64,000 bases of DNA from Bolinopsis microptera. Its lineage: Eukaryota; Ctenophora; Tentaculata; Lobata; Bolinopsidae. Below are positions 1-63,467 of the stretch, piece after piece. Both the position numbers and the translations under genes were made by a program. Position 1 is the stretch's first letter; every line of letters starts with the position of its first letter. Location: assembly GCF_026151205.1 (NCBI RefSeq), contig NC_087077.1:7121983-7185982 (forward strand), read 5' to 3'. The notes under the pieces were generated by a model that did not search any database, had not been told where the DNA came from, and was given only the letters and a program-made list of their open reading frames with translations.

Positions 1-2042
1 GCTTATACATGTCGCGGCATTTCATTAGTAAATAATATGTATTATCCGCTACGAATACAATGCCTGAATCCTGATACGTGCATAATTTTAGCCCCCCCAA
101 TTGTCGTTACATCGTTTTTAATTATCATGCTTGCGATTATATGATCGGAATAAAAATACTGCGCAATCACCTGAATGGTCTCTTCATTTTGAAGTTTTCA
201 TATCTACGTAAATGCGTATCTGTACGAATTTTCTCCATATATATACATGTATATGTATAGGGAAAATCCACACCGTGTTAAATTTGCCAGATTTGACTCG
301 TTTTGGGTATTGTCACTATTGACCTTTGGATAGTGTCCAGGATTTAGTTTGTGTTAGATTGTACAGTAGTTTAATTACGAGACAAAGCTCATCATCTGTT
401 GTCATACACTCTGACGGGACAATGCTAAATGCAGATTACTGCAGACTTATTTCATGGCTTAATAACTCGTGCAATAGTAATATAGTGTCCAGTATTAAAC
501 TTAGTATTAAACTTATATAATACAGTGGTTGGTATTAAACTTATTTTGTGTTAGAGAGGGCTTTGTGGGGGATTTTACTTTTTAACTTACTAATAAGCTC
601 ACTCTAATGACCATGCATAACTGTAACACGTGATCTGATCCACAGGTTAACTTAAATATGGTTAGATTATTCAAATATCATGCATGATATTCGAGAATTT
701 ATCGTTTTTAACGTTTATTGCGGCCTTTTTCCGTCGAAATTGAACTGAACATAAACCGATGTCAACAATGGATATTTATATCTAATATCTATTTATACCG
801 ATGATTGATATCGTGTTTTCTTTATATCATTAAAAAAAATCGTTACAGCCCACTAGTTTTGATTGTTCCAATTGTTTTCCTGCATATCTGTTAAGCGCTC
901 TTTGTGAAACTAGAGCAACAACTTATTATTAAATTGATATCTTTTTAGCAATATTTATTAACAGTTTATATAAAATGATATTCCGATATTTTTTGTTGAA
1001 TTATCATGGAACCACGATGAGTAGCACGGAATTCTTCTTTTTAATTATAACGTCCTCATTAACATTACAACTTTAAAAAAAGTAAAATTCGTCATTATTC
1101 ATGACATTTCACCGTGAGCAAAACACGTGACTGTAGAGGCTTCAACCTAAAATACATAATAACATTGAAATTTATCTGGGGTCCGGTTAGGATCAGATTT
1201 TTAAAACACTAAAAAGCTTACCGCCAGGTCATTTTTGGAGTGATATCGCTACATTGCCACATTACACTTATCTATGTTTACGTCAGTAAGGCTTATATCG
1301 AACGAATACTACTATTCGCCGAATAGTTCATATTGATAAGTTAACATATCGGCTAATCTCATATTATCTTGTTGCTATTTACTTATTTAGGCTTGAATCA
1401 TTACGATTACAAGTGACATTGCTTTTATCGAGCATTTTTGTATCGAGTTTAGTTCTGTGAGAACCACCTTATGAAGTCTCCTAGTATCCTGACGTAATAC
1501 TCAGATTACCTCCATGTAATATGGTGATTTCCACTGGTCTTTAGTGTGGATAGATGATGTGCCAGGCCATGGTGATTAATTCTGCCGTTTTATGATCTCT
1601 ATTTCGATTTACGGCAGTATAGAATGGTATTCCAACGTTCTGAACGATATACCTCAATTCATACATTTTCTGTTCTTATGGTTATAAATTCTTAATAAGA
1701 ACGCAGCCATTTTCCAATAGATTCAGACAGGTAATAGGTGTTAACTGTTTAATAATTCTAAAAGTTATCCACATTTCATCAATGCCGTGTTGATACGTCA
1801 GAAAACGTCACAAATTTTAGTAAAGCTAAATTTTAAAGTAAGGAGTCATTATTTAAATTAACCAAGCAATGATTTTAATTCATTTTTAAGTTTTTTTAGT
1901 AATTAGGATGGATTAGACCTGCTAATATACCATTCAATCTCATCAGTCTCTAATAATGAGCAATATCCATCAACCCTTTAAAAGTAAATATGAAATAATA
2001 ATAACCCTATTGATTAAGTAAGAATAACGATCCAAATTTTAC
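1..2042. other. Non-coding DNA left of the Rab-like exons
   Basis: AT-rich sequence without a convincing exon on either strand. Short open frames at 78-260 and 326-520 show no recognisable motif or splice context. If the Rab-like gene runs off the left edge, this is part of its intron 2. Confidence 0.4.
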
Positions 2043-13489: not shown

Positions 13490-16400
13490 ATCGTGAAGGC
13501 AGTGAAGCCAATAACCTCTCCTATTCCAATGACCATAGTGCGTGATGAAGAATCACATCCTTTTCGAGGTGCTACTATTAAGCATTGTAATCTGTCCTGG
13601 GTGACTCCAGTATAAACAGATGACGTGCAACAAAACACTATGGATCTAGACAGGCAAAGGTCGATAAAAAACCGGGTGCGAGATGCTGGCAACTTCTCCT
13701 CTCTAAAAGTTTGCTACTGAAACATTACACACAAATCAAGGACGGTGTGCTTCTACCTCTGCAAGGTCGGGTGAGACCAGGATGACGGCAACTGGGCAAA
13801 GCCTCAGGGACCCCAGTGGCCTGATGAGAAGAGTGGTTGCTCGTCATAACAACAGAGTAATTAGTCAACAGATCGCTCATGTTGACACTGACTTCAGCAA
13901 GTCCAATCCTATCAACTACAGCAAACACTCAATGTACTTTGGAACCTGGAATGTTTTATCTTTAGTCAGCTCATCTTCACAGCTTTATCAACTCAGTCAG
14001 AACATTGATCACTACAGTCTTGATATTTTGGGTATTACTGAAACTCATATGCCAGGATCTGGAAGTACACTTTTGGACAATGGTAGTCTACTTATTCATT
14101 CTGGTAGGGGAGATGGTATCAAAAGGCAAGGGGTTGGCCTATGTCTTTCCAAAAAGGTCAGGAACTCCCTGATCTCTTATGTACCTACATCAGAGCGGGT
14201 CTTAACAGCTAGGTTACACGGCAAACACCTCAACATATCTGTTGTTGTAGCCTACGCTCCGACTGACGGTGCTGATGACGGAGAGAAAGATCGTTTTTAC
14301 AACGTTTTATCAGACACGTTTGGTGAACTGCCCCGACATGATCTGAAACTGCTACTGGGTGACTTCAATGGAAAAGTTACTTCAAACAGATATAGATTCG
14401 AGGGAGTTATTGGTGGAGAATCTCTCCATAGTTCATCAAGCGACAATGGGACCAGGCTCATGGATTTCTGTGCAGCCAATCAACTTGTTATTGGTGGAAC
14501 TCTGTTCCAGCATAGAGACATCCACAAGGGTACATGGCGGTCTCCTAACGGGTTAACTGTGAATCAAATAGATCATATTTGTATTAGTGGACGATTCCAA
14601 CACTCGCTACTCGATGTTAAGGTATGTCGTGGGGCTGACATTGGTTCAGATCACTATCTTGTTCGTGGACGGCTGCAAATCAAACTGCAGTCGGTAGCTA
14701 AGATCACTGCTAAAAGGCACGATGTGCCTGCTATCGAACATTTGCGAAACTCGTCTAAGGTTCAAGAGTACAATGTGGCTCTTCAGAACCGTTTTGATTG
14801 TCTGGCTAATGAGGTCAACCTTGAGGACATGTGGGATAATTTCAAGCAGACAGTCACTGATGTCTCGATGGAAGTGCTTGGAAAGCGTCCCCGGAAGGTT
14901 AAAGAACAACACCTTTCGCAAACCTCTAAGAACTTGATAGAGCAACGGGGAATGTTCAAACGGAGGGATCCCACTTCAAACGTCAATAGATTAGCCTACT
15001 CTAAACTTAATAAATTAGTTAAGAAAAGTTGTAAAATTGACGACAACAACTGGGCTACTAAAATAGCGACTGATCTAGAGGAGGCTTCTAAGAAAGGCCA
15101 GCAAAGGGAAGTTTGGGATAAGATAAAGAAGATTTCTGGGAAAAAGAAGAAGAAAGTGGGTATGTCAGTTAGGGATAAGGATGGTCATTTTATTACAGAC
15201 CCGGACAGTCAGAAGGAAAGGTGGAAGGAGCACTTTACTGAGCTCTTAAATCCTCCACTATCGGATGCCAATCTTGATGACCTCGATGGTGTGCCCTCAC
15301 AACCGAGTTTTGACTACCTTTCTTGTTCTGATGGACCTCCTTCTAGAGATGAGATTAGTTATGCTCTAAAGAAACTGAAGAACTGCAAAAGTGCAGGGGT
15401 TGATGAGATAACTAATGAACAACTTAAGTATGGTGGAAGTGCTCTTGTTGGCCAACTAGAGCTACTGTTTAAAAAGGTATGGGAGGAAGAGGTGATCCCT
15501 GAGGATTGGCTTAAAGGTGTTATAGTGGTTATCGGAAAGAAGGGAGACACCTCATACTGCTGCAATAATAGGGGTATAACTCTTAGGGCAACGTCTTCTA
15601 AGGTTCTTCAAATGGTTCTTCTTAAGAGGCTGGATGTTGGAATGGAGTGTCTTCTTAGGGAAAATCAGTGTGGGTTCAGACGGAACCGCTCATGTATTGA
15701 TCAGATTTATTCCATCCGCACCATTATTCACAACTGCATTGAGTTTAACATTCCACTTTATGTTAATTTCATTGATTTTAAGGCAGCGTTTGATTCCATC
15801 AGAAGAGAGTTTATTTGGTCAAGCATGAGACACTATGGACTTCCTGAGAAATATGTTAGAATCTTTCAGGCATTCTTCAACGGAACCATGAGTGCTGTCA
15901 GGGTTAATGGTGAAATGTCTGATTGGTTCTCTGTTAATTCGGGCACTGGACAGGGTGATATCCAGGGCCCCCCTGTATTTAATTTTTGTCTGAACTTTGG
16001 AATCTTTTTGGCCGAGGTTCACAAGGCAATCAGTAATGGTGCTGTACTGCAAAAGGAACTAAAGGGTGCAGATGAAAAAGTTATCATGGACAGTGACTAC
16101 GCTGATGATCTGGCAGTGATGGACAATACTGAAGAAGGGCTGCAAGAGTCCACTGATCTTATAGCTTATTACACCTCTTATGCTGGGTTGAAGATCAACG
16201 CTAAAAAGACACAATGCATGGCGATCAGCAAGTGTGCGTCCCAGCGACCTTACACCGAAAGAGACAGTATAAAGCTAACAGTGGAGGGAGAACCTGTTGA
16301 ACAGGTCAGCAACTTTGTTTATCTTGGTGCCAACATCAGTGGGGATGGTACCATTGACCGAGATCTTGACATCAGGATCCAGCGTGCTAATGGTGCGTTC

Positions 16401-16960
16401 CATCAGCTTTGGAAGATATGGAACAGTCGAACTATAAGAACGCCCACCAAGATCCGTATCTACAAGGCTGCTGTTATTACTATTCTGTTATATGGAGCCG
16501 AAGTGTGGAACACAACAAAGAAGCAGATGAAACGGTTTGAGGTCTTCCATCTGACCTCCCTGAGAAGAATCTTGAAGATAAAGTGGTTCTTCCATGTCTC
16601 CAATGAAGAAGTTCTCAGGCGTGCTGGAATTAAGTCTATCGAAACTTTCATCGGTGCGGCTAGACTAAGGTGGTACGGACATGTTGTCAGAATGCCAGAG
16701 ACGCGGTTTCCCAATTTCTTACTGGATTGGAAACCAAACTATGGAAAGAGACTGAGAGGACGACCCCGCAAAGGCTGGATGGCCTGTGTACTCGAGGATG
16801 CGGCTGAATTTACAGGTGTCGATAACATCAGCAGAGATGCAGTAAAACAGTTGGCTCTAAAGCGAGTGGAATGGAGGAACATGTTACGCCGTAGAAGAGA
16901 TGTGTGTGATGCAGGCCACTCCAACGACTAGGAGGAGACCTCTTCATGTAGCATGTATGT
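13490..16960 (+). mobile_element. Full-length-looking RTE-like non-LTR retrotransposon
   Basis: A GC-richer leader (about 13490-13781), one uninterrupted ORF (13782-16931) and a very short 3' region with an ATGT-rich tail (catgtatgtatg near 16950) are the plan of RTE-superfamily elements. The exact ends were not fixed because no target-site duplication could be picked out, so the outer coordinates are approximate. A small stem (gagg-aga-cctc) sits just after the stop codon. All catalytic signatures are present, so the insertion is probably young. Confidence 0.75.
13782..16931 (+). CDS. RTE-like retrotransposon polyprotein (AP endonuclease + reverse transcriptase)
   Basis: The 1049-residue single ORF begins at an ATG in the leader. 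The N-terminal third is an APE-type endonuclease with all landmark motifs: TWNV (Asn57), ITETHM (Glu87), VAYAPTDG (about 157), GDFN (193-196), QIDHI (about 263) and SDH (289-291). The reverse transcriptase occupies about residues 500-830: NFIDFKAAFDSI (about 660), GTGQGDIQGPPVFNF and the catalytic YADD at 773-776. The C-terminus has the LRWYGHVVRMPE and GRPRKGW signature common in RTE/RTEX-type elements. The enzyme nicks target DNA and copies its own RNA from the nick (target-primed reverse transcription). There is no frameshift or stop. RTE versus RTEX cannot be settled by eye; LINE identity is near certain. Confidence 0.93.
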   Translation: MTATGQSLRDPSGLMRRVVARHNNRVISQQIAHVDTDFSKSNPINYSKHSMYFGTWNVLSLVSSSSQLYQLSQNIDHYSLDILGITETHMPGSGSTLLDNGSLLIHSGRGDGIKRQGVGLCLSKKVRNSLISYVPTSERVLTARLHGKHLNISVVVAYAPTDGADDGEKDRFYNVLSDTFGELPRHDLKLLLGDFNGKVTSNRYRFEGVIGGESLHSSSSDNGTRLMDFCAANQLVIGGTLFQHRDIHKGTWRSPNGLTVNQIDHICISGRFQHSLLDVKVCRGADIGSDHYLVRGRLQIKLQSVAKITAKRHDVPAIEHLRNSSKVQEYNVALQNRFDCLANEVNLEDMWDNFKQTVTDVSMEVLGKRPRKVKEQHLSQTSKNLIEQRGMFKRRDPTSNVNRLAYSKLNKLVKKSCKIDDNNWATKIATDLEEASKKGQQREVWDKIKKISGKKKKKVGMSVRDKDGHFITDPDSQKERWKEHFTELLNPPLSDANLDDLDGVPSQPSFDYLSCSDGPPSRDEISYALKKLKNCKSAGVDEITNEQLKYGGSALVGQLELLFKKVWEEEVIPEDWLKGVIVVIGKKGDTSYCCNNRGITLRATSSKVLQMVLLKRLDVGMECLLRENQCGFRRNRSCIDQIYSIRTIIHNCIEFNIPLYVNFIDFKAAFDSIRREFIWSSMRHYGLPEKYVRIFQAFFNGTMSAVRVNGEMSDWFSVNSGTGQGDIQGPPVFNFCLNFGIFLAEVHKAISNGAVLQKELKGADEKVIMDSDYADDLAVMDNTEEGLQESTDLIAYYTSYAGLKINAKKTQCMAISKCASQRPYTERDSIKLTVEGEPVEQVSNFVYLGANISGDGTIDRDLDIRIQRANGAFHQLWKIWNSRTIRTPTKIRIYKAAVITILLYGAEVWNTTKKQMKRFEVFHLTSLRRILKIKWFFHVSNEEVLRRAGIKSIETFIGAARLRWYGHVVRMPETRFPNFLLDWKPNYGKRLRGRPRKGWMACVLEDAAEFTGVDNISRDAVKQLALKRVEWRNMLRRRRDVCDAGHSND

Positions 16961-33373: not shown

Positions 33374-34826
33374 TTATCGACCACACAGCTTGTGTGGTAT
33401 TTTAACTGGTGGGCGTTTCAAGACAGAGTTGGGATATTCTCGTAGTTCATCAGCTGTTGCTTCTTCTTCCGCAATCTCCAATGCTTGGTAGAAATCTCTT
33501 ATTCTCCCCCGTGAACTACAAGTATGGGCTCTGAAATTATGTAACTTTGTGAAGTTTACTTGAATTACAAAATAAAGTTTACATACTATAGAGTAACAGG
33601 TATCAATAGTTCATTACTTCTGTTTGTGAAATGAATTAATTAATTAATTGAATAATCAAGTGCTCTCTGTAATCCCTAATGGTTTACCTACCTCTGATTG
33701 TTGGATCCTGATAGCTTGAGTAAGTCTCTCACCCGATGTACAAAACAGAAGCCATGTTTACAGTTCTCACAGTAAACAACCTGACTAGCTTGTGGTGGCT
33801 GGGTGTTTCTTTCAGATCGTGTCTTTACTTTCATGTAGTTCATATGCACGTTAACCTGCAATAAATGATGGGATTGATTTATCATTCCTCTATAAAATAG
33901 ATACGTTAATAGAATTATTGGCCATTGATTTATCATTCCTCTATAAAATAGACACGTTAAAAGAATTATTGGCCATTAATTTATCATTCCTCTATAAAAT
34001 AGACACGTTAATAGAATTATTGGCCATTGATTTATCATTCCTCTATAAAATAGACACTATTGTAAAATAGACACTATTGTAAAATAGAATTATTGGCCAA
34101 AATGTTTTGAACCCTAAAAGGAGAAGGTCCACTACCGTACCTGGCAATCTAGTGCTGTCTTTTCAGGTGGCTGATTCCTTACTACAATCTTATGTGGTCT
34201 GTTAACTGGTGGACGTTTCAGGAAAAAATTGAGAGATTCTCGTAGTTCATCAGCTGTTGCTTCTTCTTCCCCAATCTCCAATGCTTGGTAGAAATCTGTT
34301 ATTTCCCCTCGTGAACTGCGTCTATCTGTACTAATGTTTTTTAGCTTATTAAAGATTGCACAATAACTTAAGTAAAACATGGTTCATGCATGAGATATTC
34401 ACAATTTCTTGATTTTAGCTGATATAAAATTACCTCAGATTATGTTGTGACACTTTTTGTTGACCTGAACTGAGGAAATCTCTACCATTTAAACCATTTC
34501 CGGTAGCACTTTGTTTGTAACGAAACCTCTGCTTTTGCATCTCGTAATTTACTGGTGCAGAATGAAGGTGTGGTTTCTTGTTTTGACCTCCACTCGATTT
34601 CTTGCACTCTTCGTTTATATGCAAGTTCACCTGAAGAAGATATTATTATTTTTATTACGCTCGGACTAGAAAGGGTTCAATTCACCGATAAAAACTATTT
34701 ATACAATTGAAACGTCTGAAATGTAACACTTAAATTTACATTCATCAAAGGATCCTCATCATGCCTCATCAGTATCAAATCCCCACATTCAGGACAAGAC
34801 AATTGTCTTTGGGCCCGCACCGACAT
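33374..34826 (-). CDS. C2HC/AN1-like zinc-finger protein, 5 exons, 259 aa
   Basis: Exons (minus strand): 34826-34740, 34630-34434, 34330-34141, 33855-33692, 33515-33374. All junctions are GT-AG with matching phases (0, 2, 0, 2), and the chain runs from ATG to TAA. Exons 1-2 together make CPEC (11-14), an 18-residue spacer, then HINEEC (33-38). That is the C-x2-C-x18-H-x4-C spacing of the ZFAND2-type finger and also resembles UBZ4 ubiquitin-binding fingers. Exon 4 encodes YCENCKHGFCFVHR (Cys187, 190, 195, His198), like half of an AN1 finger. Exons 3 and 5 both encode SSRG-x-I-x-DFYQALEI then EEEATADELRE: a duplicated exon. Exons 2 and 4 also begin alike (VNLHIN and VNVHMN). A TGA lies four codons upstream of the ATG in frame. 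A role in ubiquitin-linked protein quality control or DNA repair is only inferred from the fingers; I cannot name the gene. Confidence 0.7.
33872..34080. repeat. 51-bp tandem repeat (4 copies) in intron 3 of the zinc-finger gene
   Basis: The unit begins ttgatttatcattcctctat and ends agaattattggcca, at 33875, 33926, 33977 and 34028, with 1-3 changes per copy. A partial fifth block with a small internal duplication (agacactattgtaaaat twice) follows to about 34100. It fills most of the 285-bp intron. Confidence 0.9.
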
Positions 34827-48100: not shown

Positions 48101-51100
48101 GTACGTGCAGAGGGTAATGTATGATATTATTTTAAAATCTTTTAATAGCTGATTTAGCTTTAAATACGGTAACAATTGCAGTCAATATTACTGCATTGAA
48201 TACTGAGACAATCTTTATTTTTAAGAGCAGTAAATAGCTAGAAGCAAAATTCTGATCTTTGTGTTCTTCAGTATTTAAGTATTTAAATGTTGAGAGCATT
48301 ATACATGTTGTGCGTATCTATAGGTGTTATGTGCGTATCTACTAGGTGTTATGCAATTCATGGATTTCTTGGTTGCACAATTGATCGGTTTGAGATCTTT
48401 CAACATCTTTTCATCGTATACTTTGTTTTTTTTTTCGACTTTTTAACTCTTGCATAGCATCAATTGCCGAAACTCCTTTGCATCTACCTTCACAATTATA
48501 TCAATTCAATATTCTCGGCAACAGTTTCTTATTCTACTAATGCTCATCCTAAAATGTTTCATGCAAACACAAATGTGTCTAGTGCACTAATAGTAACAAC
48601 ATCCCTCCATTTCCACAGACAGGTCGCACCATTAACGGTCGTTAGCCTGCCACCTTTAGATAATGTACCCGTTTTACTTGCGGTCACCAACCGTGAAATT
48701 AGTGATAATGACCCAGTAAGACGTGGTGATACCGCAGAGCACCAGTCTTTGTTTAAAGGTCATCTCCCATTTGTTCGCCAGGGTTTATCTCCTGATTGTT
48801 ATAGAGTATCGACTATCGAGCAACTCCTTTATAAACACAGTCCTTTGTGAACTGGTGTAAAGACCACGTGCACCAGGTGCTGCAGGAGTATTTCATCATT
48901 TCCAGATAACACTATTGATTATACCGTGCTATAAGTTCCACCGTGGAGACTTCTTGTCTGGTATTTTTCGTTATGTCCGGAGGAGAAACAGTTTTTAGGA
49001 GAAACGTTGGGAGTCTGAGGAAACAAATGTCTAACACGGCTATGAAGTTGATATACGATCAGTGCAGGTAGTAAAAAATACCTGGCGTTTAAAAGATTCT
49101 GCTGATCTAACATTAATAAAACCTTCAAAGCAACACCTGTTACCCAAGATACTCCCTGTCCCTCAGAATTTTGTCTTGAGTCTGATCTGATTTGATATTC
49201 AGCCACTCACTGTTCTAATCAGTTCCACAGAACATTGGTCTACAAATATTGTATAAGTAGATTGGCCAATATAACAAATGTTTCAAACATAAGCACTGGT
49301 TCTTCAATGCTTAGACTTGTTCTTTTCGGCCTTGGCCTTGACGCCGATATTACATTTACCTCGAGTCTTAGAGGCACTGAAACCTCTTTGTTTATCCCGG
49401 CAGTCCACATCAATGGTAGTTGTAATTTGACAGGGTTACGTTAAGAATAGTAACTGGTTTGTACACATGATTGACCTATAACATGGCCAGGAGAACAATA
49501 CTCAGATACTCTAGCTTGCTTACTACTTAGCGTCAGCTCCCGGTGGTGGATTCAAATTAGGTCTCATGAATATGTCCCTATCTGTTAATATTACCATCTC
49601 GTAGTGGAGCTCGTGGCTCTACTAGATCTACTGGATCAGTTTTCTTTGTTTTGTAGTGAAGATTGATTCTCGGCTTTGTTTAAGTTTGACAAGGTTAACG
49701 GTGATTGAGTAAGTTTATTGTGGCCTAGATTTTGTAACACGTGAGCGCGAGCGCGAGCGTTTCTTTGTCTGGTTTTGCCTCACAGTTAACTTCATTCGTG
49801 TTAGACTTGTATTGAATATGAAAACGTGAGCGATTCTTGTATTTTAACATTCACCTTTCACTATCAATTTCTTTTGTTGAAATATTGAAATTGCCATTCA
49901 AACAAAATACTAATACTAAATCTTATGATATTTTAACACAATTTATTGTAATACATGCTTTACTTTACGTGGATTTCGATCCTGTAGCAGCGAAGTAACA
50001 ATTAACTAAACTTCTAGAGTTCTAGTATTGTTGCAATGACCCCTGGGAACCCATGTTTATTGTTTGTCTGCAGACATGTATCTTACTATCTTAGAAGCAT
50101 GGTTACCGATGGACCTATTCTATCTGGCAACACTATAATATTCTAGTCAAATACCTATCACTTTAAATCTCGTCCGCAGATATCCTCACTATAACTGATC
50201 TAGATATTATTTCAGTAACGCTCTAGCGAAAGATCACATTCCTGAAGATGAGGACCCGTTTATATTGCAGCACTTTAACGACAGGACTAAAAAGAAGGTG
50301 TATGTGGGGAGTAATAAACCTGGGGGCACTGGAGAGGAGCAGGGAGCTTTTGTAGTTGACCCAGCCGGGGATCTCTACTTCTTTACTCAGGTAGGTGGGG
50401 AATACAGGGAGCTTTTGTAGTTGACCCAGCCGGGGATCTCTACTTCTTTACTCAGGTAGGTGGGGAATACAGGGAGCTTTTGTAGTTGACCCAGCCGGGG
50501 ATCTCTACTTCTTTAATCAGGTAGGTGGGGAATACAGGGAGCTTTTGTAGTTGACCCAGCCGGGGATCTCTACTTCTTTACTCAGGTAGGTGGGGAATAC
50601 AGGGAGCTTTTGTAGTTGACCCAGCCGGGGATCTCTACTTCTTTACTCAGGTAGGTGGGAAATACAGGGAGCTTTTGTAGTTGACCCTGCCGGGGATCTC
50701 TACTTCTTTACTCAGGTAAGTGGGGAATACAGGGAGCTTTTGTAGTTGACCCAGCCGGGGATCTCTACTTCTTTAATCAGGTAGGTGGGGAATACAGGGA
50801 GCTTTTGTAGTTGACCCAGCCGGGGATCTCTACTTCTTTACTCAGGTAGGTGGGGAATACAGGGAGCTTTTGTAGTTGACCCAGCCGGGGATCTCTACTT
50901 CTTTACTCAGGTAGGTGGGGAATACAGGGAGCTTTTGTAGTTGACCCAGCCGGGGATCTCTACTTCTTTACTCAGGTATGTGGGGAATACAGGGAGCTTT
51001 TGTAGTTGACCCAGCCGGGGATCTCTACTTCTTTACTCAGGTAGGTGGGGAATACAGGGAGCGTTTGTAGTTGACCCTGCCGGGGATCTCTACTTCTTTA

Positions 51101-54100
51101 CTCAGGTTGGTGGGGAATACAGGGAGCTTTTGTAGTTGACCCTGCCGGGGATCTCTACTTCTTTACTCAGGTAGGTGGGGAATACAGGGAGCTTTTGTAG
51201 TTGACCCAGCCGGGGATCTCTACTTCTTTACTCAGGTAGGTGGGGAATACAGGGAGCTTTTGTAGTTGACCCTGCCGGGGATCTCTACTTCTTTACTCAG
51301 GTTGGTGGGGAATACAGGGAGCTTTTGTAGTTGACCCTGCCGGGGATCTCTACTTCTTTACTCAGTTAGGTGGGGAATACAGGGAGCTTTTGTAGTTGAC
51401 CCAGCCGGGGATCTCTACTTCTTTACTCAGGTAGGTGGGGAATACAGGGAGCTTTTGTAGTTGACCCTGCCGGGGATCTCTACTTCTTTACTCAGGTAGG
51501 TGGGGAGCAGGGAGCTTTTGTAGTTGACCCAGCCGGGGATCTCTACTTCTTTACTCAGTTAGGTGGGGAGCAGGGAGCTTTTGTAGTTGACCCAGCCGGG
51601 GATCTCTACTTCTTTACTCAGGTAGGTGGGAAATACAGGGAGCTTTTGTAGTTGACCCAGCCGGGGATCTCTACTTCTTTACTCAGGTAGGTGGGGAGCA
51701 GGGAGCTTTTGTAGTTGACCCAGCCGGGGATCTCTACTTCTTTACTCAGGTAGGTGGGGAATACAGGGAGCTTTTGTAGTTGACCCAGCCGGGGATCTCT
51801 ACTTCTTTACTCAGGTAGGTGGGGAATACAGGGAGCTTTTGTAGTTGACCCTGCCGGGGATCTCTACTTCTTTACTCAGGTAGGTGGGGAGCAGGGAGCT
51901 TTTGTAGTTGACCCAGCCGGTGATCTCTACTTCTTAACTCAGGTAGGTGGGGACTGGGGAATACAGGGAGCTTTTGTAGTTGACCCTGCCGGGGATCTCT
52001 ACTTCTTTACTCAGGTAGGAGGGGACTGGGGAATACAGGGAGCTTTTGTAGTTGACCCTGCCGGGGATCTCTACTTCTTTACTCAGGTAGGTGGGGAATA
52101 CAGGGAGCTTTTGTAGTTGACCCAGCCGGGGATCTCTACTTCTTTACTCAGGTAGGTAGGGAATACAGGGAGCTTTTGTAGTTGACCCTGCCGGGGATCT
52201 CTACTTCTTTACTCAGGTAGGTGGGGAGTACTGGTTGAGAAAAGATCTCAAAACATCATATGATTAACTGTCATAATCCACCGTATCAAAGCCTTTTCAA
52301 CTCTCTAAACTTTATTTTCTTCTCAGGCGCTGGTGACAATAGCAATGCTATACAATCTTGTCTCTTCTGTCCTCCGCCTGACTTTTAGAGAATTTGAGGA
52401 GCAAAATCAATTCGTCATCTTCACCCTCGACTCCATCTGTGATATCATCTATTTATCTGACTTTGCTGTTAAGTTTCGAAGGGGATACTTGGATGATGGC
52501 ATACTGGTTCGTTCCTTTAAATCCTAATTTCATTGTAACCAGTAAATACCTCCGATATTTAGCAGTTATTTTCCATATGATAAACATAACACTAAAGGTT
52601 CTAGAACAGAAGCTCAGCAGTCAGCTGGGTTATTTTATTCCTACAACAGTCGCTATATAATACAATAACCACACAGCCCTGAATTTAGAATCCTTCTCTT
52701 GTCAGGTAACGGACGTACAGAAGATAAAAGAAAACTATATGTCATCACAAGATTTCTCATGGGACTTAGCTGCTGTTTTACCACTTTGTATCTCTTATGG
52801 TGTTGCCATGGAGATATATCAGCATTCTTCATACTTATTTACCAGCAGTTAGTTAATGTTGACTATTTTCCATCCTTTATAGGCATCCTAGCCGCCTAGG
52901 CATTCTTGTTTTCGATGTAAAACGTAACATAAGTTCAGAATGATTCGTGATATCAATGACAAAGTCTTGTGATAAATCCTATTAACTGTTTCACTACTGT
53001 AATCTTCACAGGACCTGATGTGGAAGCTTCTATGATAAAGAACATTCTAATTGGGGAGGCGACACTCCGGTTATTCAAACTCGCTAAATTCTACTCCATG
53101 CGGAGGTAAACACTAAACAGGTTTATTATTCTGTGTACCGTATTCCTCTATAAATTAGTTTCCATTCATTTCATTTCATACTTTGACAATAAACCTCAAT
53201 TCACAATCCAATAACCCCTTCTCCGCGGCAGGTTTTTCGAGAGTTTTGGGAGCAGAACAAACAGCCCAGGTGTGATGAGAGCGTTCTGTCTGATAATGTA
53301 TCTTCTCCTCTCGATACACTGGGTAGCTTGTATCTACTATTGTGTGTCTGAGTACGAGGGGTTCGGGAGAAACAGTTGGGTGTTTCCTAAATATGAGCCA
53401 GATGATCCTAATAGTAATCTGCATAGGTTTGTTCAGTGTGACTTCCGTTTTTCAGTTTTATTTAAATCGCATAGCTCTTTAAAAGTTCTATCTAAATCTC
53501 GTTGTATCCTCGACTCAACGTACAAACACTGTCACCCACAGGAAGTATATCCACTGTTTCTACTGGGCGTTCCTTACCCTGACAACAATAGGAGGTCCTG
53601 ACCAGCCTGACACCACCCTGGAGTTCATTCTGACTTGTATAACCTTTTTGTTGGGTATCTTCATATTCGCTGCGGTGGTGGGCAATGTTGGGGATGCTAT
53701 TACCAGCATGAACGAGAGTAAAACTACTAATCAGAAACGGTTTGTTCTTTCAATTTGTGGAGTAATCACAGTTTAGGTTGAGGCTGGACTTTGTTCATAG
53801 CGTATCGTAACTAAATTTGATACTCATGTAGAACATTTTAGTTATTTAGATCCCTCAAACATTTCCAACGTTACCAGATCGGACGCTATAAAGTTGTACA
53901 TGCAGCATCACGGTGTACCTGATATATTACAGAGGAAGGTTAAGAAATGGCTTGAATACTCATGGATGAGAACTCAGGTGGGTTTATATTAATTTATATT
54001 GGTTTTTTAACTGCAGTGATTATTTGATTAACAAATTTCATGATAATTATTAATTTGAATTTTTACTCCTGATAGAAAAATTTGCATCTCCCTTCTCGCA

Positions 54101-57179: not shown

Positions 57180-59182
57180 TTTTTCGGTTTATCGAAGTCT
57201 GCACGGTCCTCGATACACAAATTTGGACTCGAGGCTTCCCCTGGTAATGCGATCTCGGAAGGCAGGCCTCCCCTTTGCAGTGCGAGCTTGTTTCGACTTT
57301 CGAGGATGTAGGTCTCACTTCTCAGTGCCTATTACTCTCCCCTATTAGTATTACTCACTCCTGCTGTAGCCTGTAGAAATAACTTTACACTAGGCTTGAG
57401 TAATTATGAGTTTGCCTGAAGTGTGCCTCTACTAACCTAGTATAAGCATCTAGTAGCCTACTATGAGCTTTCATAAGCTTGTTACGCCCCTAGTAAGCGT
57501 AAATAAACATGTTAGGATGTCCAATTTAGGTGTTAAATGGTGTTAAAGATGAAATTTCGAAGACAAAATTCATGGCAGAAAATGGAGAATTACTCATAGG
57601 TTTTTCCATTTTCTCCATAGAAAAAGTCTCCATTTTATGCCATTTTATGCCATTGGCCCCCCCCCCCCTGACGATACAAGGGGAGCCGCGCACTTCGTGT
57701 GCGGCGGGTCATACAACGTATGACAAGCGCGCGTCGGTCTATTCTATTAACAATAGACTACGATCTAACGAGAGATGATCTTGCGCGATCAGATATTTGT
57801 CCATTGTTAATGGACTAGCTATAGCCTGGTGCTCGCTACTTCGTATAAGCACTCGGGCCATTAACAATAACATTTCGAGAAGACAGAAGAAAGCGTCGCG
57901 CGCTACTTCAGAGAAATTTAATTATTAGACATTGGACTTGTAGCGCGATGCACTACTGGGTCGCGCGCGCATCAAATAATGCTTCTCGCAACCACGAGAT
58001 AGATCGGTAGATCGGCGAAATGCACCACTGTGCCTCACCGAGCTGCGAAGGATTGAAATCGTGAATCAAACATTGGACGAGTAACGTCCGTTAGGCGATA
58101 TAATATGTGTTTTCTGGGGACCCCATGCTATACTGTTTTTGATACATGTTGCGTATATGTATCGTATTCGCGCGAAAAATGGCATGCAACGTATGTCAAT
58201 AATTTTCATAAACATATAGAATTTAGGAATTCAGGGCGTAGAATGTCGGGCGTCGGCTGAGTGCCGCCCAGTAATATATTCGATACTGCTCGCGCTGTAC
58301 ACTGGCGACTGTACTAGACTTAAGACTTTACAATTTTTTTCTAAGGCAAGACCGTCGACGAGTCCAACGTTGCGCGCGTCTTGGTAGGTTATTATATAAA
58401 CCTACAAGCTGATAGTGGTTATGAACACAATGAAAGCTTTGCCGGAGTCCGAACAAATTGAGCGCCACTGAGTAATTTTTAAAATGTTTGTAAGTTGTTA
58501 ACTTACAACTGTCGCGTCGTTCATTTATAAGTGGCACTGTTGATTCACGATTTCAATCCTTCGCATCTCGCCGATTTGTGGTTGCGAGATTTGTGGTTGC
58601 GAGAAGTGCATTATTGGATGCGCGGCGCGGCCCAGTAGTGCATCGCGCTACAAGTGGCGCTGCTCAGTGCACTAGAGCTAAAACACATAAAGGTTGATTT
58701 GTTGTTGTTTTTTGTTGTTGTTCTTGTATGGTGCAGAATTTAATTATGCTGCATGAAACTTAACGGATATTACTTGTTTAAATTTTTTCGAAGTCGTGCA
58801 CGCCTATGAAGTTAGTAGCTATGAAGTAGCGCGCGCCAAATTATTACCCATTAACAATATGAAGCAATTAATAACTTTATAATGAATAATAAGAAAATAA
58901 AAATGTCGTGAAAAATGTCGTGAAAAAGTCATATGATAAATCAACCATCTGGGAATCACATATTTGTTTCACCACTCACGTCGAGATACATATTTATGTG
59001 AAATTGTGCATATAATGTACAAGCGGGTACAAACCTGGAACCCATCATGCACTGTCTGATACACAATTTTGTTGTTGATAGATATCATGGCCCATTGACC
59101 ATAATTGTAAAAAGGTTATTCAAACAATATTTACGTTCTTCTATCTGCTATCTTTGTCCACAAAGCACTGAGGGTAGAACGA

Positions 59183-61915
59183 TTGGATTGGTTTACTGGT
59201 CTTGAATCACTTGCGGTAAATATTGTAATCGACTCTGTTAGGTTCAATGTTGTTTGTCTGTATCGGTCTACTTCACTTGTTGATATGAAGGACAATGCTG
59301 GCCTGTTAGGTGCTCTTGAACGTTTACCAGTTAATGCGGATGAAGAGTTGGTGATAGTTGGCGATGTGAACCTACCTCATGTTAACTGGGACAAAAGTTT
59401 AGTCGAGCGCCCACCAAACTCATGTGACAGAAGGTTGCTGATGGAATCAGAATTCTTGAATGTCTTTACCAGGAAAGGTTTGAAGTGGTATGTCACTGGG
59501 TCTTCGACACGTGTCAGGAAGGTTGGTGATACAACTCAATGCTCCTTGCTTGATCAGGTCTTCTGCAATAATGATTGTTTTGTAAATAATGTTGATATCC
59601 TTGCTCCTCTGGGTAAAAGCGATCATGTATCACTACTGGTCGAGCTGAAAGTCAAAAACAATGTCGAGTTCCTTACATCTAAGAAGAAAAGCTGGTATAA
59701 GGTGGATCAGGACTTTGTTAACACACAGTCATCAGACATCAGCTGGGGGTACTCTAGAGAAGATCTTCAGGTCGAAGAGATGTGGGAAGAATTACACCAA
59801 AAACTTAGTGTCATTTCAGATCGTGTTCCAACCACCCACCTTAAAACAACTAAAGGTGGGGAGATCTTACAGAGGTTACCCTGGGATTGCTCTAGTCTGG
59901 TTAGGAAAAGAAAGTGCAAGGACCGGGCATGGAAGGATTTTGACGAGGATCCTACGATGGTGATGTTTAACGCAGCCGAGTACGAGCAGCGGATGTACCA
60001 GAACGCTGAGATTAAGGCAAAGATCAAATATGAGAATAAAGTGACTAAATTGTTTAAGTTAAATTGTAAACCTCTTTTTAATTACCTTAAATCTAAAAGT
60101 GTTTTAAGAAAATCTGTAGAAAGACTTAAAACAGATGATGGTTCTGAGACCAAGTCTCCTTCTGAAACGGCAGAAGTGTTAGCTGATTTTTTCCAGTCAG
60201 TTTTTAAACCTGAACCTTTTGGCCCTCTGCCTCAAAATTGTTATACAGAATGTAATAATGATTACTTCTGGAGTAAATTTATGGTGCACCCTGAAAGTGT
60301 TGCCAAGATTTTGGGATCACTAGATATTAGTAAAGCTATGGGTCCTGATGGTGTTCATCCTAGACTCCTGAGGTATTTAAGTGAGAACAGTTCCTTTGTG
60401 GATGCGGTTGTGTTGCTGTTTAGTGCCTGTGCTTCTGAGCAGTATATTCCTGAGGTATGGAAAACTGCCACTGTTGTGGCCTTGCACAAAAAGGGGTCAG
60501 TACATAGTCCTAATAATTACAGGCCTGTGTCACTGACTTGTATACTATGCAAAGCCTATGAGAAGCTTCTTAGGGAGTATATTCTCGACGGTGTTGAACA
60601 GGTGCTTAGTAGCACGCAGCACGGCTTCATGAAGGGTCGGTCATGCTTATCTAACCTACTGGAGTCTATTGACGCTGTCAATGACTTGCTGGCTGAAGGT
60701 GGCTGTGCTGATATATTATACTTTGATTTCTCTAAGGCCTTTGATAGCGTACCACACCACCGTTTATTAGTTAAATTAAGAAATGTTGGTGTTCCTGAGG
60801 AGATAATTGGTATTTTAGAAAACTTTTTAGTAGGGAGGTCTATGAAAGTTAAAGTAGGAGATGAATTTTCTGAGATTAAGTATATACTTTCAGGAGTGCC
60901 CCAAGGCAGTGTTTTGGGACCATTGCTCTTTCTTTTATTTGTAAATGATCTTCCAGAAGGAATCAAAGCTATCATCAAACTTTTTGCTGATGATGTTAAA
61001 ATGATTGTTAATCCTTTTATTAATCTAACAGCTGATTTGAAGTTGCTAGAACTTTGGGAGTCTCGTTGGTGTTTAAATTTTAATGTAGATAAGTGTATGG
61101 TCATGCAAATTGGTTCTTGTAATCCTAAGAATCAGTACTTGTTTGGTGGTGTGCCTTTGAGATGTGTTGAAAGCGAGAAGGACCTTGGAGTTGTCTTTAA
61201 CACCAGCTTCAACTTTGAGGGTCATGTGAGAAAGTGCATTGCTAAAGCTAATAGTACCATTGCCTGGCTTACAAGAAATATTATATCGAGGGAGAAAAGC
61301 GTTATGCTGGGCTTGTATAAGTCTTTAGTAAAGCCTCATATAGAGTATTGTTCACAGGCATGGGCTCCAATGGCTAGGCATGGAAACTGGTCACTGATTC
61401 TTGAATTGGAAGGTGTTCAAAGATCGTTCACCCGTATGATTGATGGATTGGGACTCATGACGTACAGAGAGAGACTGGATAAGCTGAACCTCACAACCCT
61501 GCTTGAACGCAGGGTTCGTGGAGATCTCATTGAGATGTTCAAGATCCAGGAAGGCTTTGTGGGTTATGGTTCCGATTTATTTGGTCGTTCTGGTAGGACC
61601 GTTGCTGCTAGATCAAAGACTCATAGATTCACCACAAATGAGACTGATTTCTTTGCCCAAAGGGTCTTGCGCTATTGGAACAGTCTACCACCACTTGTGA
61701 AAGCTAGTGAGTCAGTTACTGGTTTCAAGAGGGGATTAGATGCCTTTCGGCTTCATGGATATCGAGCTAATAAGCTTGGTCATCACTGGGAACTTTCATA
61801 TGACATCTTTGATAGGATAGATGTGTCTGTGTCTAATGGGAATAGTTATGTAAGTTATATGAAAGATAATCCATTGGTAGCTAAGAGGAAGAAGGTTAAT
61901 ATCAAAGGTATTTAG
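59183..61915 (+). CDS. CR1/L2-like retrotransposon ORF2, N-terminally truncated
   Basis: The frame is open across 910 codons from 59183, but the codon there is TTG, not a real start; the first ATG follows at about codon 35. The remaining endonuclease part has CLYRST, VIVGDVNLPHVNW, LLDQVF and GKSDHVSL, while the N-terminal Asn and Glu catalytic motifs are missing. The reverse transcriptase is complete: YFDFSKAFDSVPHHRLL, LSGVPQGSVLGPLLF and LFADD (FADD at 601-604). The thumb and C-terminal region carry SLVKPHIEYCSQAWAP and VRGDLIEMFKI, typical of CR1/L2/Rex-like elements. No stop or frameshift occurs, so the insertion is recent, yet it cannot mobilise itself because its 5' end is lost. Confidence 0.9.
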   Translation: MDWFTGLESLAVNIVIDSVRFNVVCLYRSTSLVDMKDNAGLLGALERLPVNADEELVIVGDVNLPHVNWDKSLVERPPNSCDRRLLMESEFLNVFTRKGLKWYVTGSSTRVRKVGDTTQCSLLDQVFCNNDCFVNNVDILAPLGKSDHVSLLVELKVKNNVEFLTSKKKSWYKVDQDFVNTQSSDISWGYSREDLQVEEMWEELHQKLSVISDRVPTTHLKTTKGGEILQRLPWDCSSLVRKRKCKDRAWKDFDEDPTMVMFNAAEYEQRMYQNAEIKAKIKYENKVTKLFKLNCKPLFNYLKSKSVLRKSVERLKTDDGSETKSPSETAEVLADFFQSVFKPEPFGPLPQNCYTECNNDYFWSKFMVHPESVAKILGSLDISKAMGPDGVHPRLLRYLSENSSFVDAVVLLFSACASEQYIPEVWKTATVVALHKKGSVHSPNNYRPVSLTCILCKAYEKLLREYILDGVEQVLSSTQHGFMKGRSCLSNLLESIDAVNDLLAEGGCADILYFDFSKAFDSVPHHRLLVKLRNVGVPEEIIGILENFLVGRSMKVKVGDEFSEIKYILSGVPQGSVLGPLLFLLFVNDLPEGIKAIIKLFADDVKMIVNPFINLTADLKLLELWESRWCLNFNVDKCMVMQIGSCNPKNQYLFGGVPLRCVESEKDLGVVFNTSFNFEGHVRKCIAKANSTIAWLTRNIISREKSVMLGLYKSLVKPHIEYCSQAWAPMARHGNWSLILELEGVQRSFTRMIDGLGLMTYRERLDKLNLTTLLERRVRGDLIEMFKIQEGFVGYGSDLFGRSGRTVAARSKTHRFTTNETDFFAQRVLRYWNSLPPLVKASESVTGFKRGLDAFRLHGYRANKLGHHWELSYDIFDRIDVSVSNGNSYVSYMKDNPLVAKRKKVNIKGI

Positions 61916-62005: not shown

Positions 62006-62312
62006 TATTTATAATGTTATGTTATGTTATGTTCTAAATCAAAGAGCACAAAGAACTTTGTGGATGTATAATTTGAACTTGGACCCACAAGGCCAATGTG
62101 AAGGGTGAATTTGGAATGTTTCTGCCAATATTTAAGTTGGGAAATTTATTAAATTTTTGAAGGTTTCATTTTGTATAGGGTCATTGTGATATCGTGTGTA
62201 TATTACATTAATTATTGGCAGAGCACAATCATAAATCATGAGCAATAATTCTTGTCTATCCTGCGTAGCTTTTCTCCACAGGGATCAGGATGAAAGAGAC
62301 ACTGGATACTTG

Positions 62313-62392
62313 TATCCTTGTATCCTTGTATCCTTGTATCCTTGTATCCTTGTATCCTTGTATCCTTGTATCCTTGTATCCTTGTATCCTTG
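62313..62392. repeat. 8-bp tandem repeat, 10 exact copies
   Basis: The unit tatccttg occurs ten times without a mismatch. A degenerate unit (gatacttg) precedes it. Apparent coding (LYPCILVS repeats) is a by-product of the repeat. Confidence 0.95.
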
Positions 62393-63467
62393 TACACATA
62401 ATATAACAATTACCCATTTATAAAAATTCAATATAAATTCAATAGAAAACTAAATAAAATTTATAAACACCCTTTAAGTAGTATAAGTAAGCCAGTTTAA
62501 AGAACTGGCTCCAAATTTATATCTAATTCTGCTATTTTTACTACACTACTACTTTTGGATATAAGATGGTCCATGCCTTCTTCACCTTCCCACGTACAGC
62601 TCTTACTACTAGTACACTCCTCATTGTATCTATACCAAACACCAAATAATATCATGAAATTAATTTGTGTTAATGTGGCAAAAAAGTCAACTAGTGACCA
62701 TGTTCTTCTCCAGACACAGATCGTAGCTGGGGTTCAGTGTTGTCCTGTACTGTTTAACTATAACTACTGCATGGTATCTCAAGGGTATGTTACTTGCCTG
62801 TAGGCAACGTTACGCCACTGGTTGCACACTCCGGGCATCTTGGTCTGGGCAATCCTCATGGTCGCCCATGTAGAAACAGAAGCTAGACTGCTCTAAGAGC
62901 TTATATACAGCCAAGGCATTTTGAGATGAGTAAAGTCATGGTACTAATAGCAAGCAATACTATCGATTTCACTAAAGCTTTACTGCATGGAAGGACCCGC
63001 CATAAGTTTAAGCCATTAAACATCAAGCCATGTTTTCCAGATCCGAGGCATCCATTGATAGATGGGTTCTGATGTGCCCAATAAAAATATAGTGCTTGTA
63101 ATTGGTTTACACTGGACTTGTATTCGGTAGTTTGCACTATTATCATCATCATCAGAACTTATCACTTAAACTTGTTTTCCTAAATAGTTGTGTTGAAGGT
63201 ACGTAGGGGAGAAGACCTATATTTGGTGATGAAGTCTTTGGTCTGGCGATCAAGGCTTCTCTGCTTTCCGTCTACTTGTGTACTGTTGGGGGTATAGAAC
63301 TCAGAGAGGGACATGGACAGGTTAGTGTATATTACTCACAGCTTAAGGGTCAAAGAAAGATGACATGACGGTGTGTGATTAGAGTGAGTAGGAAGGCAAG
63401 TTTGAGAGTTTGTTCGGAGAATGAAGGTCTCTGTTTTCTTTTAATTGGTGTAGAGCGTATGCTGCAT

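Follow-up and report, generated by a model that had tools for sequence, protein, structure and literature searches.

Intron 2 of a cyclic-nucleotide-gated (CNG) channel gene of Bolinopsis microptera, located in a 64,000-nt stretch of contig NC_087077.1 (positions 7,121,983 to 7,185,982; hereafter the window), consists almost entirely of a minisatellite whose units each repeat the end of exon 2 together with its 5' splice site. Because the exon end scores well both as a donor and as an acceptor, 27 of the 29 units look like dual-specific sites of the recursive type, and the array is, on these scores, a row of candidate dual-specific sites and more than a set of competing donors. We see about an even chance that this boundary minisatellite is tolerated through exon definition combined with re-splicing between dual-specific units. 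The acceptor-grade score of the exon end had been overlooked in a sequence-only reading of the same DNA, and it is the array's most useful feature.

The host gene and its repeated exon-intron junction

The channel protein carries the Pfam domains Ion_trans and cNMP_binding, and its top PDB matches are CNGA2, CNGA1, and CNGA3 (best E 5.9e-118), which identifies it as a CNG channel nearest the CNGA chains. A purpose-written spliced alignment gave the identical ten introns for exons 2-12; its query was the gene model's own protein, and this agreement is therefore a measure of consistency and provides no independent support. Exon 1 and intron 1 are less certain, the first intron having been placed by hand. 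Introns 3-11 range from 115 to 282 nt.

The placement of the exon 2 end at 50390 is well supported (vertical bars mark splice junctions), because the exon 2/exon 3 junction (FFTQ|ALVT) aligns without gaps with both CNGA2 and CNGA1, and because the paralogue L013, found on the same scaffold, has a phase-0 intron at the identical place. That intron is 176 nt long, the paralogue has a single copy of the exon end (FVVDPTGDLYYAWQ|G) at the matching junction, and its spliced alignment showed no array at this site. Intron 2 is thus common to the two paralogues, and the array is an addition. Two further, more distant channel relatives, at C1:2631662-2633038 and C2:6537449-6538834 (G000), share 36% identity; both are single long open frames without the window gene's introns over the matched part.

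Unit boundaries were set by cutting the array at CAGGGAGC, which yielded 22 intervals of 65 bp, four of 63 bp (copies 18, 19, 21, and 24), two of 72 bp (copies 25 and 26), and the last unit. Each unit spans the exon-intron boundary, as placed by homology, and comprises the last 51 nt of exon 2 followed by 14 nt of intron, or by 12 or 21 nt in the length variants. Over the common 61-nt core, pairwise identity between units averages 97.6% (minimum 91.8%). CAG|GT is intact in 27 units (22 with CAGGTAGGT, two with CAGGTTGGT, and one each with CAGGTAAGT, CAGGTATGT, and CAGGTAGGA), and copies 16 and 19 read CAG|TT. The array accounts for 95.1% of the 1,936-nt intron, which can be described as 28 unit steps (1,826 nt) followed by 110 nt of unique sequence in which the intron's own acceptor lies. 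As an explanation of such an array, chance can be set aside; its copy number of 29 depends on a single assembly.

A pattern search of the whole assembly, allowing at most two mismatches, located 29 sites, all of them within the array, and none for a reversed control pattern, a missing match being here no strict proof of absence; among the matches listed, the assembly search contained no second haplotype of exons 2-3. These results bear out much of what the sequence-only reading had described, namely 29 tandem copies of the exon 2 end and donor in a CNG intron (29.0 copies by Tandem Repeats Finder, with the gene identified by CNGA homology), 27 of them with CAG|GT, filling about 95% of the intron. 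Its unit of 51 nt of exon and 14 nt of intron holds for most units and gives way to the 63- and 72-bp forms in the others; of the coordinates it gave (50340-52326), the start stands, and 52326 is the end of the intron, the array itself ending at 52231. We also observed that the 63- and 72-bp units are in frame and so leave an open frame across units 24-27 (window 51784-52116), which would encode 16-residue repeats if ever retained.

Scores of the repeated junction as donor and acceptor

Splice sites were scored with matrices derived from 56 introns of the B. microptera genome, real sites being scored leave-one-out. This set combined 38 introns of small-GTPase genes, 10 of the 11 introns of the CNG gene, and 8 of the 11 aligned in L013, from which three poorly aligned introns, including alignments of 56 and 84 nt, were excluded. 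The small-GTPase introns came from 46 aligned in 24 loci, of which 39 passed a flank-identity filter and one exact duplicate was dropped; near-identical paralogues other than exact duplicates were retained. A held-out set consisted of 27 further non-redundant introns (from 17 loci, where 41 were aligned and 32 survived the filter).

As a donor, the unit junction (score 10.33) equals or exceeds 51 of the 56 real donors and 23 of the 27 held-out donors. The same exon end, scored as an acceptor (9.15), equals or exceeds 45 of the 56 real acceptors and 15 of the 27 held-out ones, a level reached by none of the 206 other exonic AGs of the gene and by only 15 of the 3,396 other plus-strand AGs of the window. 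In TCTCTACTTCTTTACTCAG|GTAGGT, a pyrimidine tract and CAG directly precede the donor, as in a recursive splice site. The array has 51 AGGT sites. With the lower quartile of real sites as the cut-off for donor and acceptor scores alike, 27 of them qualify, as many as there are intact CAG|GT junctions, and under a stricter cut-off of 10 as donor and 9 as acceptor 21 still do; elsewhere in the window, counting both strands, 412 AGGT sites yield 21 at the quartile cut-off and none at the stricter one. The AG at the start of each unit (AATACAG|GG) was considered as an acceptor that would make a 48-nt in-frame exon of each unit, and was rejected because its scores (-5.8 to -1.5) are lower than that of any of the 56 real acceptors. 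The predicted RNA structures of one and of two units were no more stable than those of shuffled sequences (z 0.77 and 0.90, respectively).

Table 1. Features of the CNG gene and its intron 2 array (window coordinates), with the exon-end copy in the Rab2-like gene
Feature	Position	Strand	Basis or remark
CNG-type channel gene, coding part, 12 modelled exons, 952 residues	47049-55527	+	11 GT-AG introns, one open frame
Exon 2, 175 nt, ending ...DLYFFTQ, phase 0	50216-50390	+	CNGA homology and paralogue junction
Tandem array, 29 units	50340-52231	+	Tandem Repeats Finder: period 65, 29.0 copies, 95% matches
Exon end read as 3' splice site, ATCTCTACTTCTTTACTCAG|G	50371-50391	+	Acceptor score 9.15; in every unit, with few changes
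Authentic 5' splice site CAG|GTAGGT, copy 1	50388-50396	+	Donor score 10.33
Intron 2, 1,936 nt	50391-52326	+	Gene model
In-frame TAG met on later-donor read-through	50418-50420	+	
Best branch-point-like heptamer AGTTGAC, copy 2 shown	50419-50425	+	A about 32 nt upstream of CAG
Copy 16, donor lost, CAG|TTAGGT	51363-51371	+	
Copy 19, donor lost, CAG|TTAGGT	51556-51564	+	
Copy 29, final donor in array	52214-52222	+	110 nt upstream of exon 3 acceptor; unique intron sequence after
Exon 3 3' splice site (TTTATTTTCTTCTCAG|G)	52307-52327	+	Acceptor score 12.5, at least equal to 55 of 56 real acceptors
Exon 3	52327-52506	+	Gene model and spliced alignment
L047 exon end and copy	G000:C8:11914400-11919700, positions 983-1057	-	3,791-nt intron

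Proposed re-splicing and the competing explanations

Judging from protein homology, the normal mRNA would join the donor of copy 1 to exon 3. In one-step splicing, donor 1 alone is computed to give the 952-residue product, and each of the 26 later intact donors, if spliced directly to exon 3, leads to a stop at codon 419, in agreement with the sequence-only reading, which had later-donor read-through meet the TAG at 50418. Its further statement that only the first donor gives a full-length product is correct for one-step splicing and fails if the transcript can be spliced again. Where human donors are nearly equal, long introns on the two sides are reported to favour the upstream donor and a short downstream intron the downstream donor; without a strength filter, the downstream donor was the more used across all intron classes (PMC9225289). 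With long introns on either side (2,115 nt for intron 1 and 1,936 nt for intron 2) and donors that are near equal, exon 2 would be exon-defined and donor 1 favoured.

The exon end, moreover, would by coincidence be a good 3' splice site, making the intact units dual-specific. Splicing of any donor to the exon end of a later copy would remove whole units and recreate the same exon end and donor, and if a late donor had been used first, a second round of splicing could link donor 1 to the exon end that by then abuts exon 3, which would yield the correct mRNA. In that case the array would potentially erase itself in RNA, so that its copy number would be nearly invisible to selection and could drift upward. 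In a toy simulation without unit acceptors, the correct product made up 4% (uniform donor choice) or 1% (short introns favoured), and with dual sites and repeated splicing it made up 56-96%, by assumption; the simulation demonstrates a possibility, not a fact. More tentatively, and in our view less likely than not, the intron may be self-erasing in the fuller sense that most splicing orders converge on one mRNA, with acceptor-like exon ends open to invasion by minisatellites and other exon ends closed to it.

This last proposal bears on other introns of the genome. A survey of 84 other introns (57, near-duplicates included, and the 27 held out) yielded only one further exon-end copy, in the second aligned intron of the Rab2-like gene L047. 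The copy is a perfect 37-nt match that begins 6 nt into the intron (the best of 580 mismatched pairs reached 13, compared with 37), and Tandem Repeats Finder, run over the 116 boundaries of 58 introns, flagged the same two places, the CNG array and L047. The L047 exon end has an acceptor score of 9.68 and is one of two ends that reach at least 9.15 among 82 others (54, the 27 held out, and exon 2 of L013). That both copied ends are acceptor-grade has a post hoc P of 0.0009 with the focal gene and 0.024 without it; the 9.15 threshold was itself chosen post hoc, and the numbers are small. The L047 copy looks as if its downstream donor had been lost. Within the same Rab2-like intron lies a degenerate tandem repeat rich in CCT/CAG, about 1.2 kb in extent (reverse complement, approximately 1722-2978).

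A number of observations weigh against re-splicing between dual-specific units and the associated idea of tolerance. The branch-point candidate is mediocre, equalling or exceeding only 12 of the 56 real introns (shuffle P 0.062), and its distance to the AG exceeds the median of about 24 nt. Of all synonymous DLYFFTQ encodings, weighted by the gene's codon use, 13% score equally high (22% when the last codon is CAG), so the protein sequence may in itself be enough to explain the pyrimidine tract. At 65 nt, a unit falls below the shortest sampled intron (110 and 130 nt in two samples), so splicing steps would probably skip at least two units, and the toy model with skips of at least two units leaves one unit in 36-41% of transcripts. 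Outside the array, the exon 2 end of L013 scores 7.25 as an acceptor and has no array; the L047 copy has no AG|GT of its own and gives only partial support to the tolerance idea; and two ends have no exon-end copy, that of L078, which is acceptor-grade (10.9), and another paralogue exon end, which scores 9.01 and, if counted as acceptor-grade, shifts the P of 0.0009 to 0.0018. Finally, exon definition alone could be enough.

This last point leads to the alternative that survives best, for which there is precedent. The sequence-only reading knew of no described case, and here it was mistaken: in amphioxus, minisatellite-like duplications of exon-intron boundaries, termed 'mirages', have been published for Adh3, globin (BflGb6 and BflGb9), troponin C, and PGBD5 genes. 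Duplications are reported at 5' as well as 3' boundaries, donor-side cases included, as is length instability, and normal mRNA is reported for the mirage-bearing Adh3, globin, and troponin C genes (PMC3087553, PMC3902484). The CNG array may likewise be a plain mirage, in which exon definition selects donor 1, the 26 other intact donors act as silent decoys, and the exon end resembles an acceptor through a coincidence of encoding DLYFFTQ and is never used as one, an explanation that we consider a serious possibility, if short of probable. The long introns 1 and 2 and the 175-nt exon defined by donor 1 form the setting in which human cells are reported to prefer the upstream of near-equal donors (PMC9225289), amphioxus mirages are reported to leave splicing undisturbed (PMC3087553, PMC3902484), and the synonymous recoding P is 0.13. 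Against a plain mirage stand the acceptor signals of the intact units, which match real ones in score, and the L047 copy, which also sits at an acceptor-grade exon end.

We consider it improbable that the array acts as a switch, in which use of later donors diverts transcripts to a premature stop and channel expression depends on the balance, with copy number perhaps as the tuning element. The identical codon 419 stop given by all 26 later intact donors when used directly is what such a switch would employ, but nothing points to regulation, the copies drift (two donors have been lost), L013 lacks the array, and the dual-site splicing of human UBC is reported to have shown no tissue or feedback regulation (PMC10809524). 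Least credible of all is a short array inflated by the assembler: the array is known from one assembly, and the reported strategy of long reads, wtdbg, and short-read polishing (PMC10232365) can miscount repeats, but the copies vary in length and at 11 of 62 core sites, similarity at a distance of three units is higher than under shuffled order (P 0.007 at lag 3, among eight lags tested), and no second assembly location with the unit was found.

Origin of the array and its place among known duplicated splice sites

Tolerance by exon definition and re-splicing concerns the persistence of the array; its sequence also bears on how it arose. The ancestral intron 2 was short, on the basis of the 110 nt left after the last donor and the 176 nt of the L013 intron, which upholds the sequence-only reading's view that a short intron had been expanded. 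The exon 2 end and its donor would first have been duplicated into intron 2, and the array would then probably have grown via unequal exchange or slippage, a process we infer from the observed repeats. The similarity of units at lag 3 is as expected under block duplication. The 63-bp junction could have formed at a GGAG common to two places, the exon flank upstream of the first unit (ending ...GAGGAG) and the intron downstream of the last donor (GTAGGTGGGGAGTACTGG). Variable sites among units number 5 of 51 in the exon part, compared with 6 of the 11 compared in the intron part (Fisher P 0.0023), and four of the five exon-part changes fall at third codon positions; coding constraint on the copies was considered and set aside, and the pattern fits exchange with copy 1, a point to which, given the small numbers, we attach no weight.

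The CNG array and the amphioxus mirages have in common units that span an exon-intron boundary. They differ in that here there are 29 near-identical donor-side units, compared with two to seven reported in the globin and PGBD5 cases, and in that the animal is another and the gene a CNG gene; the intact units here also score as acceptors, a property that the passages on the amphioxus cases do not test. In human UBC, tandem dual-specific sites are reported to be spliced, and the authors of that work argue that repeats with such sites do less harm since they can be removed by splicing (PMC10809524). Like UBC, the CNG array has tandem AGGT sites with donor-grade and acceptor-grade signals, fit for 5' or 3' splicing, such that whole units are or would be spliced out. 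The UBC units, however, are coding, in frame, and 228 nt long, and make isoforms, whereas those of the CNG array are mostly 65 bp, out of frame, and inside a pre-existing intron with its own acceptor; use of the sites is demonstrated in UBC and predicted here.

Two further systems share parts of this arrangement. Tandem duplication of AGGT segments is reported to be able to create introns (the Rogers model, ATP2A1, and 24-nt repeats in fission yeast; PMC4974935, PMC3629103), and there, as here, a duplicated exon segment with AGGT supplies ready GT and AG ends. The CNG intron, common to the paralogue, was probably pre-existing and was lengthened rather than created, and Rogers-type creation of an intron in a continuous exon was ruled out by the same-place, same-phase intron of L013. 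Recursive splice sites, described also at distal exon ends (PMC10156609), likewise combine a pyrimidine tract and CAG|GT at one point; in the CNG gene, there are 27 copies in one 1.9-kb intron, and their use is predicted. As far as its sequence indicates, the CNG array thus joins mirage and UBC-type features, as a large donor-side mirage with dual-looking units. No published case with both features emerged from searches of open-licence PMC papers, which is no proof of absence.

The surroundings of the gene contain other repeats. The CNG gene lies between two LINE-like open frames, both long and with endonuclease and reverse-transcriptase domains (window 13707-16931 and 59111-61915), and the window also includes tandem arrays of 51 bp x 3.6 (33873-34057) and of CTTGTATC x 10.8 (62309-62394). 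A search of the 64,000-nt window with bacterial settings found no tRNA. Elsewhere, G000:C1:12425539-12459122 is dense with Ras/Rab-like frames of the same orientation, many of them intronless across the whole domain.

The array extends the mirage phenomenon to a probable non-chordate, whose genome provides a second, if partial, example. It constitutes a natural experiment on splice-site choice, in which 27 near-identical donors lie about 65 nt apart and only the first leads to an intact protein in one step, and for which exon-proximal and intron-proximal rules of donor choice predict opposite outcomes. If the dual sites are used, they would provide (i) a route by which minisatellites could spread harmlessly through a splice junction, and (ii) a simple test, from sequence, of which junctions are open to such invasion.

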